From contig JVKM01000062.1 of assembly GCA_001072465.1 (NCBI GenBank), forward strand, positions 6,874 through 40,134: a stretch of DNA of 33,261 nt, written 5' to 3'. The position numbers were made by a program, and so were the translations under genes. The notes beneath the pieces were generated by a model that worked only from the letters and a program-made list of their open reading frames with translations, was not told the origin of the DNA and searched no databases. The stretch is from Xylanimonas cellulosilytica. Its GTDB lineage: Bacteria > Actinomycetota > Actinomycetes > Actinomycetales > Actinomycetaceae. Below, piece by piece: positions 7,237 through 31,858 of the stretch. Positions within the stretch are counted from its first letter, which is position 1. Every line of letters starts with the position of its first letter.

Positions 7237-9297
7237 ATGCGCTCCTCGTGGAGGACCATCGTCGCCGGGCTCACCCTGGCCCTCGGCGCCGCCGCAGCGG
7301 CCCTGGTGCCGCCGGCGCACGCAGCAGGTATCACGATCGCCATCGACCCCGGGCATGGCGGCTCCGACCCCGGCGCGGTCGCAAACGGCCTGCGTGAGAA
7401 GGACCTGACCCTCGCGGTCTCGCTGGCGCTGAAGGAAGAGCTGGAAAGCTACGACGGTGTCCGCGTCGTCATGACCCGCACGACGGACACCCGTCCCTCG
7501 GAGAACATCAGCACCGACCTGTCCAGCCGCGTCGAGATGGCGGCCGCGGAGGATGCGGACGCCCTCGTCTCCATCCACTTCAACTCGGGCGCGCCTATCG
7601 CGAAGGGCGCCGAGGTGTGGTACCCGAATTCCTCCTCGTACAACTACGGCACCCACACGCAGGGACGTACCCTGTCCAACGCTATCCAGAAGCAGCTGAC
7701 CGGCCTCGGACTGGCCGATCGTGGCATCAAGACGCGTGACAACCCCTACTACGACTACCCGGACGGCTCGACCGGCGACTACTACGCGATCATCCGCCAG
7801 GCTCGCGAAGAGAACATGACCGGCGTCATCGTCGAGCACGCCTTCGTGACCTCCGCATCCGACGCAGCCCTCCTGCGCAACGAGAGCTTCGTGCGCTCCC
7901 TCGGTGTCGCCGATGCAACCGGCATCGCCCAGGCCTACGGTCTGAGCAAGGGCACCTGGCGCGCCACGGGCGACTCCTGGAGCTTCATCTCCAACGGCAC
8001 GGCCAAGACCGGCTGGTTCTCCGCCGGTGGCCGCTGGTACTGGGCCGGCTCCAACAAGCAGACGATCCGCGGCTGGTCGACCATCAACGGACGCCGCTAC
8101 TTCTTCGATGACTCCACCGCCATGGTGACGGGCTGGAAGAAGGAAGACGGCAAGTGGTACTACCTGCGTCCCGACGGTGACATGGCCACCGGCTGGGTGA
8201 AGGTCGCCGGCTCCTGGTACTACATGAACGCCGACGGCGTCATGCTCACCGGCTGGCTCAAGGATGGCAACAACTGGTACTGGCTGCGCGCCAACGGTGC
8301 AGCCGCGATTGGCTGGACCAACGTTGATGGTGCCTGGTACCTCTTCGAGGACGACGCGCGCATGCTCACCGGCTGGCAGCTGACTGAGGATGACAACCGC
8401 TGGTACTACATGCGATCCAGCGGCCAGATGGTCACCGGCTGGCTCCTCGATGCCGGCAAGTGGTACTACCTGGATGGTGAGGGCGCCATGATGACCGGCT
8501 GGACCAAGGTGGGCGACACCTGGTACCACCTGAGCTCCTCCGGCGCGATGAGCACCGGCTGGCTCCTGGATGGCGCCTGGTACTGGCTGGACCCGAACTC
8601 GGGCGCCATGGCGACGGGCACGGTCACCGTTGAGGGCCGCGCATCGAACTTCGCTTCCTCCGGCGCGTGGCTGGGCTACGCGGACGGCAGCGAGGCTCCG
8701 GCGGCCTCCCGCAGCGCCTCGCGCAGTGCATCCGTCACGAACGCGTCCGGTCAGCGCCTCATCATGAGTGCCCCCACCGCCTCGCGCGCGGAGATTATCG
8801 ACGCGATGGAAGACGCCTGGGATCAGGCCGGCTACAGCTACCCGAACGCCCTGGCCGCTGGCGGTGCGCCGACGATCCGCGACTTTGCGTCCATCGTCTA
8901 CGACGAGGCCGTGGCCGAGGGCGTGTCCCCCGAGCTGGTCTTCGTCCAGGCGATGAAGGAGACGGGTTGGCTGCGATTCGGCGGCGATGTGACCGTCAGC
9001 CAGTACAACTTCTCCGGCATTGGCGCGGTTGGCGGCGGCGCGAAGGGCGCCTCGTTCCCGGACGTGCGCACCGGCATCCGCGCCCAGGTTCAGCACCTGC
9101 GCGCCTACGCGGACTCCTCGGTGACCACGGCATCGCTCGCGAACACGGTTGTCGACCCGCGTTTCACCTATGTGCGCAAGGGCGCGGCCCCCGTGGTCGA
9201 GTACCTGGGCATTCAGGAGAACCCCAACCGCACCGGCTGGGCCGCTGCCAAGAACTACGGCTACGACCTGGTGTCCATGATGAAGGCGTACTTCTGA
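7237..9297 (+). CDS. Secreted bifunctional autolysin: amidase_3 + choline-binding-like repeats + glucosaminidase-like domain
   Basis: A 686-residue secreted peptidoglycan hydrolase. Residues 1-30 are a signal peptide ending VPPAHAA. Residues 31-235 are an N-acetylmuramoyl-L-alanine amidase domain (Amidase_3); zinc ligands are visible as His40 in DPGHGG, Glu54 in REKD and His114 in SIHFNS, with catalytic Glu200 in VEHAF. Residues about 240-475 are roughly ten 20-residue repeats of the GW-x-x-x-x-G-x-WYY-x-x-x-x-G-x-M-x-TG type, as in choline-binding/cell-wall-binding repeats. After a Ser/Ala linker, residues about 515-686 resemble endo-beta-N-acetylglucosaminidase domains; ELVFVQAMKETGWLRF carries the likely catalytic Glu575 and YNFSGIGAVGGG follows. 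It should cut both the stem peptide linkage and the glycan strand after binding a wall polymer. ATG 7237 has AAGG seven bases upstream. A strong hairpin follows the stop, so it is a single-gene unit. Confidence 0.92.
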   Translation: MRSSWRTIVAGLTLALGAAAAALVPPAHAAGITIAIDPGHGGSDPGAVANGLREKDLTLAVSLALKEELESYDGVRVVMTRTTDTRPSENISTDLSSRVEMAAAEDADALVSIHFNSGAPIAKGAEVWYPNSSSYNYGTHTQGRTLSNAIQKQLTGLGLADRGIKTRDNPYYDYPDGSTGDYYAIIRQAREENMTGVIVEHAFVTSASDAALLRNESFVRSLGVADATGIAQAYGLSKGTWRATGDSWSFISNGTAKTGWFSAGGRWYWAGSNKQTIRGWSTINGRRYFFDDSTAMVTGWKKEDGKWYYLRPDGDMATGWVKVAGSWYYMNADGVMLTGWLKDGNNWYWLRANGAAAIGWTNVDGAWYLFEDDARMLTGWQLTEDDNRWYYMRSSGQMVTGWLLDAGKWYYLDGEGAMMTGWTKVGDTWYHLSSSGAMSTGWLLDGAWYWLDPNSGAMATGTVTVEGRASNFASSGAWLGYADGSEAPAASRSASRSASVTNASGQRLIMSAPTASRAEIIDAMEDAWDQAGYSYPNALAAGGAPTIRDFASIVYDEAVAEGVSPELVFVQAMKETGWLRFGGDVTVSQYNFSGIGAVGGGAKGASFPDVRTGIRAQVQHLRAYADSSVTTASLANTVVDPRFTYVRKGAAPVVEYLGIQENPNRTGWAAAKNYGYDLVSMMKAYF

Positions 9298-9360: not shown

Positions 9361-9431
9361 TGTCCTCCGGTTCTGATTGTGGTCGCGCGGGCTGCGCATC
9401 ACTTCTGTCAAGTTGTGGTAGGTAGCCTTGT

Positions 9432-9459
9432 TTGACGAAAATATCAAGCAATGTACCCT
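9432..9459 (+). promoter_or_regulatory. Promoter candidate for the GIY-YIG-like gene
   Basis: TTGACG at 9432-9437 and TACCCT at 9454-9459, spaced by 16 bp, match the housekeeping consensus well. A leader of about 40 bases would follow, with AAGGAGAG as a strong ribosome binding site before ATG 9509. The AT-rich tract here contrasts with the GC-rich flanks. Confidence 0.5.
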
Positions 9460-9508
9460 ATGATGAGGGTGAGAAAGGCGGCGTGTGTCTATCGACAAGG
9501 AGAGTGCA

Positions 9509-10261
9509 ATGGCCGAAAAAACGTGGTTGTACATCTATGAGGGTGCGCCTCGCAGCGACGACGAGGAGCGCAGGCGCATCTACATTGGGATCGGTAAGAG
9601 CATGGAGCGTGTGTTCGAAGAGCACAATCCTGAGGCCGAGAGTCTCCGCAACGCGGAGGGAACCCTTATCCGTCAGACGGTTGAGCCGTTTTCGAGCCGT
9701 GAGGATGCGCTCAGGGCCGAGGCTGTTGCCATCCATGTCGCCTCTCTCATGGGGCTGGACCCGATCTATGCCGCTAAGGATGAGGACAAGCTGTTCGAGA
9801 AGGACGAGAAGGACGACAAGTCGGTCACCAACATTGCGGGGACGAAGACGAGCAAGCACCTGGGGCCGGCGATTCTCACGCGTGACGGTGAGGTCGCTCA
9901 GAGTGAGATGAGAGAGACGATCATCGTGCCGATCTCTGCGGACTCTCTCGAAGGGCGTGTCTCGGCGTTTGGAGGCAATGCCGGAGAGGTGTTTATCGAA
10001 CGCGCAGCACAGTATTGGAACGTCGCCTCTGACAAGCGTCCCAAGATCAGGAAGCTCGTTGCTGTGCTAACAAAGGCTCATGTCATCCTGGGGTCCTGGG
10101 AAGTGGATCCCAGCCTTGAATGGGAACTCGCCGATCCGGATAGTACTTGCATCCGAATTCCTGTTCCTCACCCCGAGAACGATAATGTCGATGATTTCAA
10201 GGGCAAGCGCTATGTGGGGACTCTCCAGCCACGAGGGGTCTATTCCCCGGATATCGCCTAG
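9509..10261 (+). CDS. Orphan protein with GIY-YIG-like N-terminal domain
   Basis: A soluble 250-residue protein I do not recognise as a named gene. Its first 80 residues fit the GIY-YIG nuclease layout: WLYIYEG (Tyr8/Tyr10), then IYIGIGKSMERVFEEH with Tyr25 of the YIG part, Arg34 and His39. SSREDALRAEAVAIH follows, with Glu71 where family members place the metal-binding Glu. The middle (about 85-125) is charged and probably a linker. The C-terminal half has RAAQYWNVASDKRPKIRKLVAVLTKAHVILGSWEVDP, a pattern of an aromatic-rich small domain sometimes attached to such nucleases; this is a weak impression. ATG 9509 follows AAGGAGAG; an upstream GTG at 9485 is open but less likely. Base composition is visibly lower in GC than the neighbours, suggesting acquisition. 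A 19-bp repeat array lies 110 bp downstream. DNA cleavage activity is inferred, not shown. Confidence 0.7.
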   Translation: MAEKTWLYIYEGAPRSDDEERRRIYIGIGKSMERVFEEHNPEAESLRNAEGTLIRQTVEPFSSREDALRAEAVAIHVASLMGLDPIYAAKDEDKLFEKDEKDDKSVTNIAGTKTSKHLGPAILTRDGEVAQSEMRETIIVPISADSLEGRVSAFGGNAGEVFIERAAQYWNVASDKRPKIRKLVAVLTKAHVILGSWEVDPSLEWELADPDSTCIRIPVPHPENDNVDDFKGKRYVGTLQPRGVYSPDIA

Positions 10262-10369
10262 CCTGGCCCTCCTCATGAGATGGTTACTAGGGGAGACCAC
10301 TCATGATCGATCAGTGATCGGTCTGCATGATGGGTCTAGGCTGCGGCAACTTGCCCGACGCCTGCTCGC

Positions 10370-10493
10370 ATCCGGATAGGTTGTGCGCATCCGGATAGGT
10401 TATGCGCTTCTGGATAGGTTAATAAGCTATCCGGATGTTCGTAACCTATCCGGATGTTCGTAACCTATCCGGATGTTCGTAACCTATCCGGAT
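10370..10493. repeat. Head-to-head array of 19-bp repeats (3 forward, 4 reverse)
   Basis: Three forward copies of ATCCGGATAGGTT start at 10370, 10389 and 10408, the third with two changes. Four reverse copies of AACCTATCCGGAT start at 10424, 10443, 10462 and 10481, the first with one change. The period within each half is exactly 19 bp. Six-base spacers are GTGCGC/ATGCGC in the forward half and GTTCGT, three times identical, in the reverse half. The two halves meet around AAT at 10421-10423, so the whole is a giant imperfect palindrome. The core ATCCGGAT is itself a palindrome. It occupies most of the 390-bp gene-free stretch 10262-10651, between two convergent genes. That stretch also has a small palindrome CGATCA-G-TGATCG (10308-10320) and the rmlCD hairpin. 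Confidence 0.95.
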
Positions 10494-10603
10494 ACCCCGC
10501 CCCCATTCGCAACCGTCGCGCTGAGGGCGTGCGCGGGCAGCCCCGGCTACGTGCGCAGGCACCGTAGCCCCCACGCACACGCAGTGAATGTGGACATAGC
10601 AAC

Positions 10604-10632
10604 GGCCCCGAGCACCGTCGGTGCCCGGGGCC
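10604..10632 (-). terminator. Hairpin terminator after rmlCD
   Basis: GGCCCCG and CGGGGCC pair at the base, with inner GCACCG (10612-10617) / CGGTGC (10619-10624) around a single T; there is one internal mismatch. It lies 20 bases past the rmlCD stop codon on the minus strand, so it most likely ends that transcript. Confidence 0.6.
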
Positions 10633-10651
10633 TGCCTCGTACGTGTAGAGG

Positions 10652-12079
10652 TCAGCCGCGCAGGGAAGCGACGTAGGAGTCGATGCGCTGCGAGGAATCC
10701 TCGGGGGTGAAGCCCGCGGCCTTGATCTTCGTCAGGTCCAGGACGGAGGACAGGGGGCGCGGAGCCACCTCGCGGCCCGCGAAGTACTCATCCGTCGTCA
10801 CCTCGGTAACATCCTCCGGATTGCGGCCGCACAGCTCGAACACGCGCTTGGCGATCTGCGCCCAGCTCATGACCGGTCCCTCGCCCGACAGGTTGTAGGT
10901 GCCAAACGGGGCGTCGCTGGTCAGCAGGTGAATGATGCCCTTGGCCAGGTCGGAGGTGAAGGTCAGGCGGCCCACCTGGTCGGACACGACCGAGGGGGAA
11001 GTGCCCTGATCTGCCAGGGACGCCATGGTCTTCAGGAAGTTCTTGCCGTCGCCCACAACCCAGGAGGTGCGCACGATGTAGTGCTTCGGCGTCGAGGCCA
11101 CAGCGGCGTCGCCGCCCGCCTTCGACTGGCCGTACGCGCCCAGGGGAGAGGGGGCCTCGTCCTCAACGTGCACGTCCTGCGTGCCATCAAAGACGTACTC
11201 CGTCGAGATGTGAACCATCGTCGCACCGTGAGCCGTGGCCTCGCGCGCCAGGATCGCCGGGCCCGTCGAGTTCGCCTGCCAGGTTGCGCGGCGACCCTCG
11301 GGGGTCTCAGCGCCGTCGACGTTCGTCCACGCGGCCGCGTTGATCACCACGTCGATGTCGTCCCACGGCAGCGCGGCCACCTGCTCGGCGTCGGAAATCG
11401 ACACCTCGGGCAGGTCCACGCCCGTCACCGTGAAGCCGGCCTCGGGCAGGGCGCGCATGAGCTCGCGGCCCAGCTGGCCGTTCGCGCCCGTCACGAGCGC
11501 GCGGCGACCCACGGGAGCCGGGGCAGGGAAGGGGGTCACGTCCGCCATGCGCGGGTGAGCCTTGTCCTTGTCGGACAGGATGGCGCGCTCGAGCGGGATC
11601 GGCCAATCCACGGCGGCCGTCTCGTCAGCCAGGTTCAGGAAGGTGTAGCGCGCGTCCGGCGACCAGTGGTCGTTCACGAGGTACGTGTAGGCCGTGTTCG
11701 GCTCCAGGGTCTGGTAGGAGTTGCCTACGCCCTTGGGGACGAACACCGCGACGCCCGGATCGATGATCGTCGTGTAGACGGTGCCGAAGGAGGGGCCCTC
11801 GCGCAGGTCCACCCACGCGCCAAACACGCGGCCGGTCGCGACCGACACGAACTTATCCCAAGGCTCCGCGTGAATGCCTCGCGTCACCCCGACCTCGTCG
11901 TTGAACGAGATGTTGTTCTGCACGGGCTGGAAATCCGGCAGGCCCAGCGCGACCATCTTCTCGCGCTGCCAATTCTCCTTGAACCAGCCTCGGTTATCGC
12001 CGTGAACAGTCAGATCAATGCGCAAAAAGCCGGGGATCGGCGTGGTCGTAATCCCCAGGGGCTTAGCGGTGGGCGCCAT
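10652..12079 (-). CDS. rmlCD: Bifunctional dTDP-4-dehydrorhamnose 3,5-epimerase / dTDP-4-dehydrorhamnose reductase (RmlC-RmlD fusion)
   Basis: A 475-residue fusion carrying out the last two steps of dTDP-L-rhamnose synthesis in the cytoplasm. Residues 1-185 are the cupin RmlC: NRGWFKENW, QNNISFNDEVGVTRGIHAE with catalytic-site His70, Lys76 in PWDKF, VFVPKGVGNSYQTL, and the likely acid Tyr133 in TYLVND. Residues 191-475 are the short-chain dehydrogenase RmlD: TGANGQLG (197-204) for NAD(P)H, VINAAAWTNVDGAE, ISTEYVFDG, and catalytic Tyr316/Lys320 in YGQSK. RGIHAE instead of the usual RGLHYQ is typical of fused forms as I recall them from Bifidobacterium and relatives. ATG 12079 is preceded by AAGGAAGAACC. 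It is divergent from rmlA; rmlB is not in the window. Both active sites look intact. Confidence 0.94.
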   Translation of the reverse strand: MAPTAKPLGITTTPIPGFLRIDLTVHGDNRGWFKENWQREKMVALGLPDFQPVQNNISFNDEVGVTRGIHAEPWDKFVSVATGRVFGAWVDLREGPSFGTVYTTIIDPGVAVFVPKGVGNSYQTLEPNTAYTYLVNDHWSPDARYTFLNLADETAAVDWPIPLERAILSDKDKAHPRMADVTPFPAPAPVGRRALVTGANGQLGRELMRALPEAGFTVTGVDLPEVSISDAEQVAALPWDDIDVVINAAAWTNVDGAETPEGRRATWQANSTGPAILAREATAHGATMVHISTEYVFDGTQDVHVEDEAPSPLGAYGQSKAGGDAAVASTPKHYIVRTSWVVGDGKNFLKTMASLADQGTSPSVVSDQVGRLTFTSDLAKGIIHLLTSDAPFGTYNLSGEGPVMSWAQIAKRVFELCGRNPEDVTEVTTDEYFAGREVAPRPLSSVLDLTKIKAAGFTPEDSSQRIDSYVASLRG

Positions 12080-31479: not shown

Positions 31480-31854
31480 GGGGATGATCGGTTTCGACAG
31501 TGGTCGTCGATCGAAGTGAAGCGAGCCGAGAATGTACGCTCAACTCGTTAACGATGCGTGCAAACCAATAGGTGCCGAACAGAATCGCACCGACTACGTT
31601 CTCGCTGCCTGATATCGCAGCCTGAACCTTTAGTCCGTCAGCCCGGGAGTTGCTTCCGGCCCGGTGTCTGGCGTCGTCTAGGGAGCCACTGGGAGTCGCC
31701 CATGTTGGTGGGGCGCCTCCGACACTTAATCAACTGAGCCTATCTGGCGGTGTGTCTACGCAATGCTAGGGGCTGAGAAATAAAACCGTAGACTGCGCTC
31801 GGAGAAGAATTCGGGGCCGGCCATTGGACGGGGGTTCGATTCCCCCCATCTCCA
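31480..31854 (+). ncRNA. ssrA: Transfer-messenger RNA (tmRNA)
   Basis: The mature RNA is about 375 bases. The 5' end GGGGATG (31480-31486) pairs with CATCTCC (31847-31853) as acceptor stem, with one G-U pair. It is followed by the highly conserved ATCGGTTTCGACAG. The T arm is GGGGG-TTCGATT-CCCCC (31830-31846). The discriminator is A31854, and the next bases are CAA, so the 3' CCA is not encoded. The tag ORF starts at the GCC at 31574 and reads AEQNRTDYVLAA, then TGA at 31610-31612. The downstream stretch of 200 bases holds the GC-rich pseudoknot region. The RNA rescues stalled ribosomes with SmpB (25943-26470). The 3' end is next to an integrase gene and is the likely attachment site of a mobile element. 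Confidence 0.95.
31574..31612 (+). other. tmRNA tag-peptide reading frame
   Basis: Twelve codons from GCC 31574 give AEQNRTDYVLAA and a TGA stop. The hydrophobic end VLAA is the expected degradation signal for ClpXP-type proteases; many relatives end ALAA. The resume codon is inferred from the frame and the Ala start. Confidence 0.85.
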
Positions 31855-31858
31855 CAAA
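31830..31858. other. Probable attachment site (att) at the 3' end of ssrA
   Basis: An integrase gene in the same orientation begins about 180 bases past the tmRNA 3' end. Tyrosine recombinases that sit next to ssrA normally use its T-arm/acceptor 3' segment as the crossover core. The far copy of this segment is expected beyond the window, so the repeat itself cannot be seen and the exact core is inferred. Confidence 0.55.

Follow-up and report, generated by a model that had tools for sequence, protein, structure and literature searches.

An inverted array of 19-bp repeats from a dispersed family in the Schaalia odontolytica group, and its possible role as a six-site protein-binding platform

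The window, by which we mean the whole analyzed stretch of 33,261 nucleotides, carries an array of short repeats that face one another across a single base and lie between two convergent genes. Its features are as follows:

9509..10261, + strand: left neighbor of 250 aa, resembling GIY-YIG proteins by eye only and standing outside the array system
10370..10493, no strand: whole array, three forward and four reverse units at a 19-bp period, from the unit search of the window
10370..10474, no strand: canonical 3+3 core, center ±52 bp, from the profile of 199 arrays and the model R1 match
10370..10382, + strand: forward unit 1, exact
10389..10401, + strand: forward unit 2, exact
10408..10420, + strand: forward unit 3, 2 mismatches
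10422..10422, no strand: dyad center base (TTA-A-TAA)
10424..10436, - strand: reverse unit 1, 1 mismatch
10443..10455, - strand: reverse unit 2, exact
10462..10474, - strand: reverse unit 3, exact
10481..10493, - strand: reverse unit 4, exact; outside the canonical 3+3
10652..12079, - strand: right neighbor, dTDP-4-dehydrorhamnose 3,5-epimerase/RmlD fusion, at whose 3' end the conserved array locus lies

The 13-bp unit of this array is ATCCGGATAGGTT, repeated in 19-bp steps, with both arms meeting at 10422. A preliminary description of the locus had reported the coordinates, the 19-bp phasing, three forward and four reverse copies, their head-to-head junction, identical GTTCGT spacers throughout the reverse half, and a position between convergent genes, all of which were borne out; the genes are the forward ORF 9509-10261 and the reverse rmlC/rmlD-type fusion. 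Two points needed correction: five of the seven copies, but not those at 10408-10420 and 10424-10436, are exact, and the junction placed at 10421-10423 is indeed the meeting point, but the dyad is the single base 10422. With at most one mismatch, the 13-mer had 53 matches in its own genome (G000) and its reversed control none. Within the window, 10 matches with at most three mismatches stood against a shuffled mean of 3.8, a count reached by 1 of 100 shuffles; three of the 10 are scattered outside the array, and the shuffles do not cover the phasing. A profile built from 36 diverse arrays (model R1) matched the core at G000:C62:17244-17346, corresponding to window positions 10371-10473, with an E value of 8.4e-27. 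Elsewhere in the window lie a tmRNA gene (31480-31857, Rfam RF00023) and, upstream of the GIY-YIG-like gene, a choline-binding N-acetylmuramoyl-L-alanine amidase/glucosaminidase gene (7237-9297).

The left-neighbor ORF sits inside a longer open frame starting at 9485 and gave no Pfam match at 0.001 and no PADLOC match at 0.01. The array had been suggested as a possible target of this protein, to be checked by whether the unit always lies next to homologs of its gene. The gene adjoins the array in G000 and G021, as a target or operator relationship would predict, but among the loci checked for it, homologs stood beside the rmlD arrays of these two genomes only. Sorting the 200 arrays with usable flanks gave 60 locus groups, of which 27 have a single member, and G000 alone has at least 14 arrays. 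Most arrays lie elsewhere, without the gene; moreover, the window array sits downstream of it. We therefore give almost no credence to the array being a target or operator of the adjacent protein, and arrays present without the gene, the outcome named beforehand as refuting such a link, refute this as a general explanation.

In one group of oral bacteria, about 15 to 50 similar six-site arrays were found in intergenic positions along the chromosomes. Of the 35 genomes of the genus, 10, belonging to the Schaalia odontolytica group, had the exact center pattern and many arrays each, and the profile search (E up to 0.001) extended this to 13 of 35: the same ten, G007, and G010 and G019 with one array each. 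Both of these single arrays have as neighbor a hydrolase gene, apparently the one that also adjoins an array pair of G000, and they may have originated by local exchange. The center pattern gave 14 arrays in G000, at the least, and its 36 profile strand-matches imply somewhat more; distinct sites read off the model matches numbered 17 in G005, 21 in G006, 32 in G013, and 18 in G018, the last without weak partial matches. Across 213 genomes of the bacterial family, the center AGGTTANTAACCT matched in 21, 12 of this genus and nine others; the latter had one or two matches each, none of them an array by inspection or scan. A scan of a public genome collection returned at least 100 stretches with the pattern. 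Among the 80 listed by title, 16 came from other organisms; these look like chance matches, with one unit per side except in L107 (one and two). Of 12 viral stretches, 11 had a single unit per side, and L164 had two on one side and one on the other. Matching site offsets identify G001 as A. bouchesdurhonensis and G026 as Schaalia sp. ORNL0103. The NZ_JVOJ records (G023), titled Sanguibacter keddieii 250_SKED, are classed within this genus and bear Schaalia-group arrays, and this label looks wrong. A literature search, judged by title or abstract for part of the matches, returned no publication on these arrays.

For a profile of the family, 234 center matches were reduced to 199 arrays oriented by the center base, 35 being dropped for having fewer than four units or a short flank. 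Information was high from -52 to +52 and at background beyond, and conservation stops at about ±53 bp. The canonical form comprises 3+3 sites over 105 bp; exactly 3+3 was the commonest form (106 of 199), and 157 of the 199 had at least three units on each side. Each unit is an asymmetric site of about 14 bp, ATSYGGATAGGTTA, three per arm facing a one-base dyad, and the two central 14-bp units stand one base apart. The unit core is GGATAGG, with adjoining TTA and ATSY, and the five-base spacers drift. The possibility of a plain tandem repeat with freely varying copy number, raised at the outset, has this much to it that copy number slips by whole units: one G005 array exceeds its G006 counterpart by three 19-bp units (57 bp). 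However, copy number centers on 3+3, and this prevalence rules out a plain tandem repeat.

A variant unit, ATTGGGGYAGGTTA, with a 20-bp period and the center AGGTTAWTAACCT, was found in G007 and G008. It shares its center with the 19-bp type, the contrast being GGATAGG at 19 bp versus TTGGGGYAGG at 20 bp. The variant arrays of G008 were missed by the profile; with them, the multi-array genomes number 12: ten of type I, G007, and G008. The unit of G007 and G008 would represent a network-wide change of specificity. When 400 kb from G009, G029, and G011 were scanned de novo, without shuffles and with controls recovered in 10 of 10 loci, five hits resulted, none taken as a third array type; four resemble coding repeats rich in G+C, and the fifth (L394) seems to be a different sort of repeat.

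Arrays favor convergent gene ends over divergent promoters. Two called neighbors were available for 188 of the 200 arrays, of which 97 lay between convergent, 76 between co-directional, and 15 between divergent genes, versus 27, 99, and 54, respectively, among 180 background gaps of at least 150 bp at the same loci; both counts rest on simple composition-based gene calls. Five arrays overlapped a called gene by more than 30 bp. Counted per locus (n = 55), 23 were convergent, 25 co-directional, and 7 divergent. Together with the 3+3 profile and the conservation at rmlD described below, the divergent deficit supports the earlier statement that the array is not an ordinary promoter operator. The DtxR/IdeR iron box has similar AGGTTA half-sites, separated by three bases; it was rejected, since one base separates the half-sites here and the arrays avoid divergent promoters.

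The same placement might suit a local transcription insulator or roadblock, with a bound protein parting convergent units or absorbing supercoils at gene ends. Both the convergent excess and the divergent deficit speak for it, but the 76 of 188 arrays between co-directional genes do not fit, and the apparent scarcity of arrays near the terminus (see below) would be left unexplained. In addition, rmlD seems to have a terminator of its own, as G+C-rich stem-loops were seen by eye between rmlD and the array in several genomes. We consider this role improbable. A search of 9400-10800 for intrinsic terminators (G+C-rich stem plus T run) found none, a weak test given 0.6 in shuffles.

Some array neighbors look like guaB, ponA-rplI, pknB, and adenosine deaminase genes, and others are accessory genes. 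In eight genomes (G000, G001, G005, G006, G013, G018, G021, and G026), a DUF559/MTES_1575-like gene has an array on either side, with nuclease-domain matches that are weak and below Pfam cutoffs (e.g., L046:5305-6800). In G001, G005, and G021, array pairs flank a HepT-like/HTH-nucleotidyltransferase pair of the toxin-antitoxin type (L234:2469-3872, L142, and L176) beside an adenosine deaminase-like gene. Pfam was run on the G000 and G005 copies of the flanked genes and, for the HepT pair, on L234. Other array pairs enclose other genes, and the arrays were thus rejected as a general accessory-gene cassette.

Arrays were retained at fixed loci. For pairs from different genomes with both flanks in common and the same orientation, mean core identity was 0.85 (458 pairs), versus 0.70 for all array pairs; another 115 pairs shared both flanks in opposite orientation. 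Beyond the 3' end of rmlD, an array was present in 10 of 10 genomes, nine fetched through the rmlD gene and G005 through its array (L205), 1.6 kb from rmlD with an IS-like insertion in between. The array of G018 has partly decayed, with part of one arm gone, and no array was seen at the rmlD locus of the four next relatives viewed (G007, G029, G009, and G011). Without G018 (36 pairs), the rmlD arrays differed at 1.9% of unit positions, 0% in the outer units, and 33% elsewhere in the array; with G018 (45 pairs), the values were 6.6%, 7.1%, and 39%. This comparison used the best-scoring array per locus, which favors intact units. Units diverged less than spacers at all 23 orthologous loci compared, with means of 0.016 versus 0.24; pooled over 310 between-genome pairs (core identity 0.55 to 0.97, at least 3+3, same orientation), the figures were 2.0% and 23.8%, for arrays retrieved with a pattern in which the central units were fixed and only good outer units counted. 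Apparently, the arrays are kept by selection, to judge from this comparative pattern. Near-identical arrays occur at unrelated loci, however, and part of the conservation of units may come from gene conversion or copying.

The 3+3 architecture, the retention of loci with free spacers, and the placement at 3' ends favor a six-site binding array. With a confidence just short of even, we propose that the arrays are a dispersed, selected six-site binding platform for an oligomeric DNA-binding protein, with a role perhaps at the chromosome level. The initial suggestion of a cooperative site for a multimeric protein is thus supported by profile, context, and rmlD conservation, from which we infer binding. 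Plasmid iterons and repeat-based partition sites likewise consist of direct repeats of about 19 bp that are bound cooperatively; unlike them, the arrays described here are chromosomal and occur at many loci, and no rep or par gene was seen beside the few annotated loci. The ends of Mu, Tn7, and IS21 resemble the arrays in carrying several transposase sites per end in opposite orientation, but here the arms are one base apart and enclose nothing (no gene fits in 105 bp), and no target duplication was seen by eye.

A long RNA hairpin or DNA cruciform had also been suggested, and for the window copy it is possible: this copy folds at -80.3 kcal/mol (z = -12.6). The fold is strong because such a palindrome must fold, and across the family no spacer pairing is kept. 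Among 43 dereplicated arrays, mirror complementarity exceeded expectation by 0.008, against 0.084 for the identity of neighboring units; the mirror signal lay mainly next to units and was negative at the center and at spacer positions 4, 17, and 39. In 36 diverse arrays, the covariation score was above that of 498 of 500 shuffles, and paired cells made up 75.3%, more than in 482 of 500, both in favor of a hairpin. However, some spacer pairs formed in as few as 5 of the 36 arrays, and pairs changed on both sides numbered 24, below the shuffled mean of 25.5. An excess of pairing near the units is what homogenization of units would be expected to give. Rfam at gathering thresholds, applied to the whole window, returned only the tmRNA, and the array matched no family. 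Since spacers are unpaired across the dyad, a conserved hairpin is unlikely, and we regard RNA hairpin or cruciform as the working form as very improbable.

The main rival to a selected binding array is a REPIN-like nonautonomous mobile element, copied by a vertically inherited transposase and persisting as a population of sequences whose individual sites need serve no function for the host. We rate it as unlikely, but several observations speak for it. Within genomes, a few arrays at different loci are near identical: of 1942 pairs, 2 reach 0.95 and 9 reach 0.90. The best, L226/L221 in G013, has 3 differences in 105 positions, and its flanks agree over some 25 bases to the left but only a few to the right. 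In the second pair, L125/L078 in G026, much of the left flank is common to both arrays. Arrays also form local clusters in G021, e.g., four within 0.9 kb. Published accounts describe REP/BIME/REPIN elements with RAYT as inverted, intergenic between convergent or co-directional genes, locally tandem, and clade confined (PMC3733652, PMC8049555), and the 173 of 188 arrays in convergent or co-directional positions match this placement. The REP palindromic unit is described as carrying a GTAG or CGTC tag (PMC3733652). Against a REPIN-like population, the consensus of 199 arrays has neither tag, spacers are unpaired, each arm has three direct units, and copies number only in the tens. Furthermore, from species to species the units at a given locus remain intact although its spacers drift, and no target-site duplication was seen by eye in the near-identical pairs. 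Six G006/G005 comparisons were checked for empty sites; both flanks were recovered in two (L373/L367 and L371/L368), and neither had a clean empty-site junction. The final count of near-identical pairs weakened self-copying as the main theme and slightly lowered our rating of the REPIN-like population. The family seems to duplicate locally and now and then to reach new loci, and a selected binding array and a REPIN-like population may both hold.

The distribution along the ori-ter axis was assessed in five genomes with dnaA as the origin and site lists from pattern and model matches, the G021 list being partial. In the terminus-proximal 30% of the axis, 11 of 104 clusters were found versus 31 expected, about threefold fewer, where the expectation has no null for intergenic space and the genomes share loci. 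By genome, the terminal clusters numbered 3 of 14 in G005 (P = 0.36), 2 of 20 in G006 (P = 0.035), 2 of 26 in G013 (P = 0.007), 1 of 16 in G018 (P = 0.026), and 3 of 28 in G021 (P = 0.016), four of the five being below 0.05. The depletion is incomplete and is absent in G005; a first count gave 6 of 84, and the fuller site lists weakened it. With each locus counted once, 4 of 42 fell in the terminal 30% (P = 0.0015), and merging loosely linked loci left 1 of 18 there (P = 0.014), for pattern-found sites at approximate positions, with about three model-only loci near the terminus omitted. The largest array-free gap was significant in two of five genomes (G006 and G013), and a pull toward the origin in one (G021). 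Orientation relative to the replichore was slightly biased, 51 to 29 with 4 ties, which speaks for the REPIN-like population; none of the genomes reached significance by itself and G018 showed the reverse bias, and a strong replication-linked orientation was not borne out. The order of arrays in G005 versus G006 suggests a large rearrangement on one side of the chromosome.

Returning to the selected binding array, a single DNA-binding protein would occupy the units, one monomer per unit. At the center, two monomers would face each other head to head, and the remaining ones would follow head to tail at 19-bp intervals, so that a symmetric, hexamer-like complex results. With less assurance, we propose that such complexes may act at the chromosome level and not on the neighboring gene: like SlmA or Noc sites, they would mark DNA near the origin and in the arms, to time division or to serve segregation or folding. 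New copies would seem to come from local duplication and rarely from copying to distant loci. In our view, a chromosome-level function is the most likely single role. According to one published article, Noc and SlmA have about 70 and 24 to 52 sites, respectively, under-represented near the terminus (PMC4726725). Like those sites, the arrays are dyad symmetric and dispersed in tens over the chromosome, and they may likewise be scarcer near the terminus; unlike the palindromic Noc and SlmA sites (14 bp for Noc), they comprise six sites of about 14 bp, 3+3. The likeness is one of site pattern and not of any protein homolog.

More doubtfully, the arrays might constitute an Actinomycetaceae chromosome-marking system not described before, in which a dedicated oligomeric protein on 3+3 arrays, sparse near the terminus, times or places division or shapes the chromosome, with its specificity switched network-wide between two lineages. 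The arrays point to a sequence-specific chromosomal protein, in a common group of oral commensals, whose sites can be counted in each genome and follow a strict geometry. To our knowledge, actinobacteria have no equivalent of Noc or SlmA, and the chromosome-level reading, if true, opens the question of how they keep division off the chromosome. The two unit types permit a direct test of a binding network changing specificity together with its protein. Neighbors common to both array types were examined for a candidate binder; the three candidate loci contained no DNA-binding candidate protein, and at one of them, the 3' end of a DUF1266 gene, the placement of the array was similar.

By eye, insertion-sequence-like transposase genes lie close to arrays at L273 (G005), L279 (G001), and L179 (G021). 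Also seen by eye, often near arrays, was another dispersed repeat, some 150 bp long and inverted at its ends (CGCACGTAATTCCC ... GGGAATTRCRTGCG), in L272, L274, L275, and L278, all from the rmlD locus, as well as in L012, L014, and L015.
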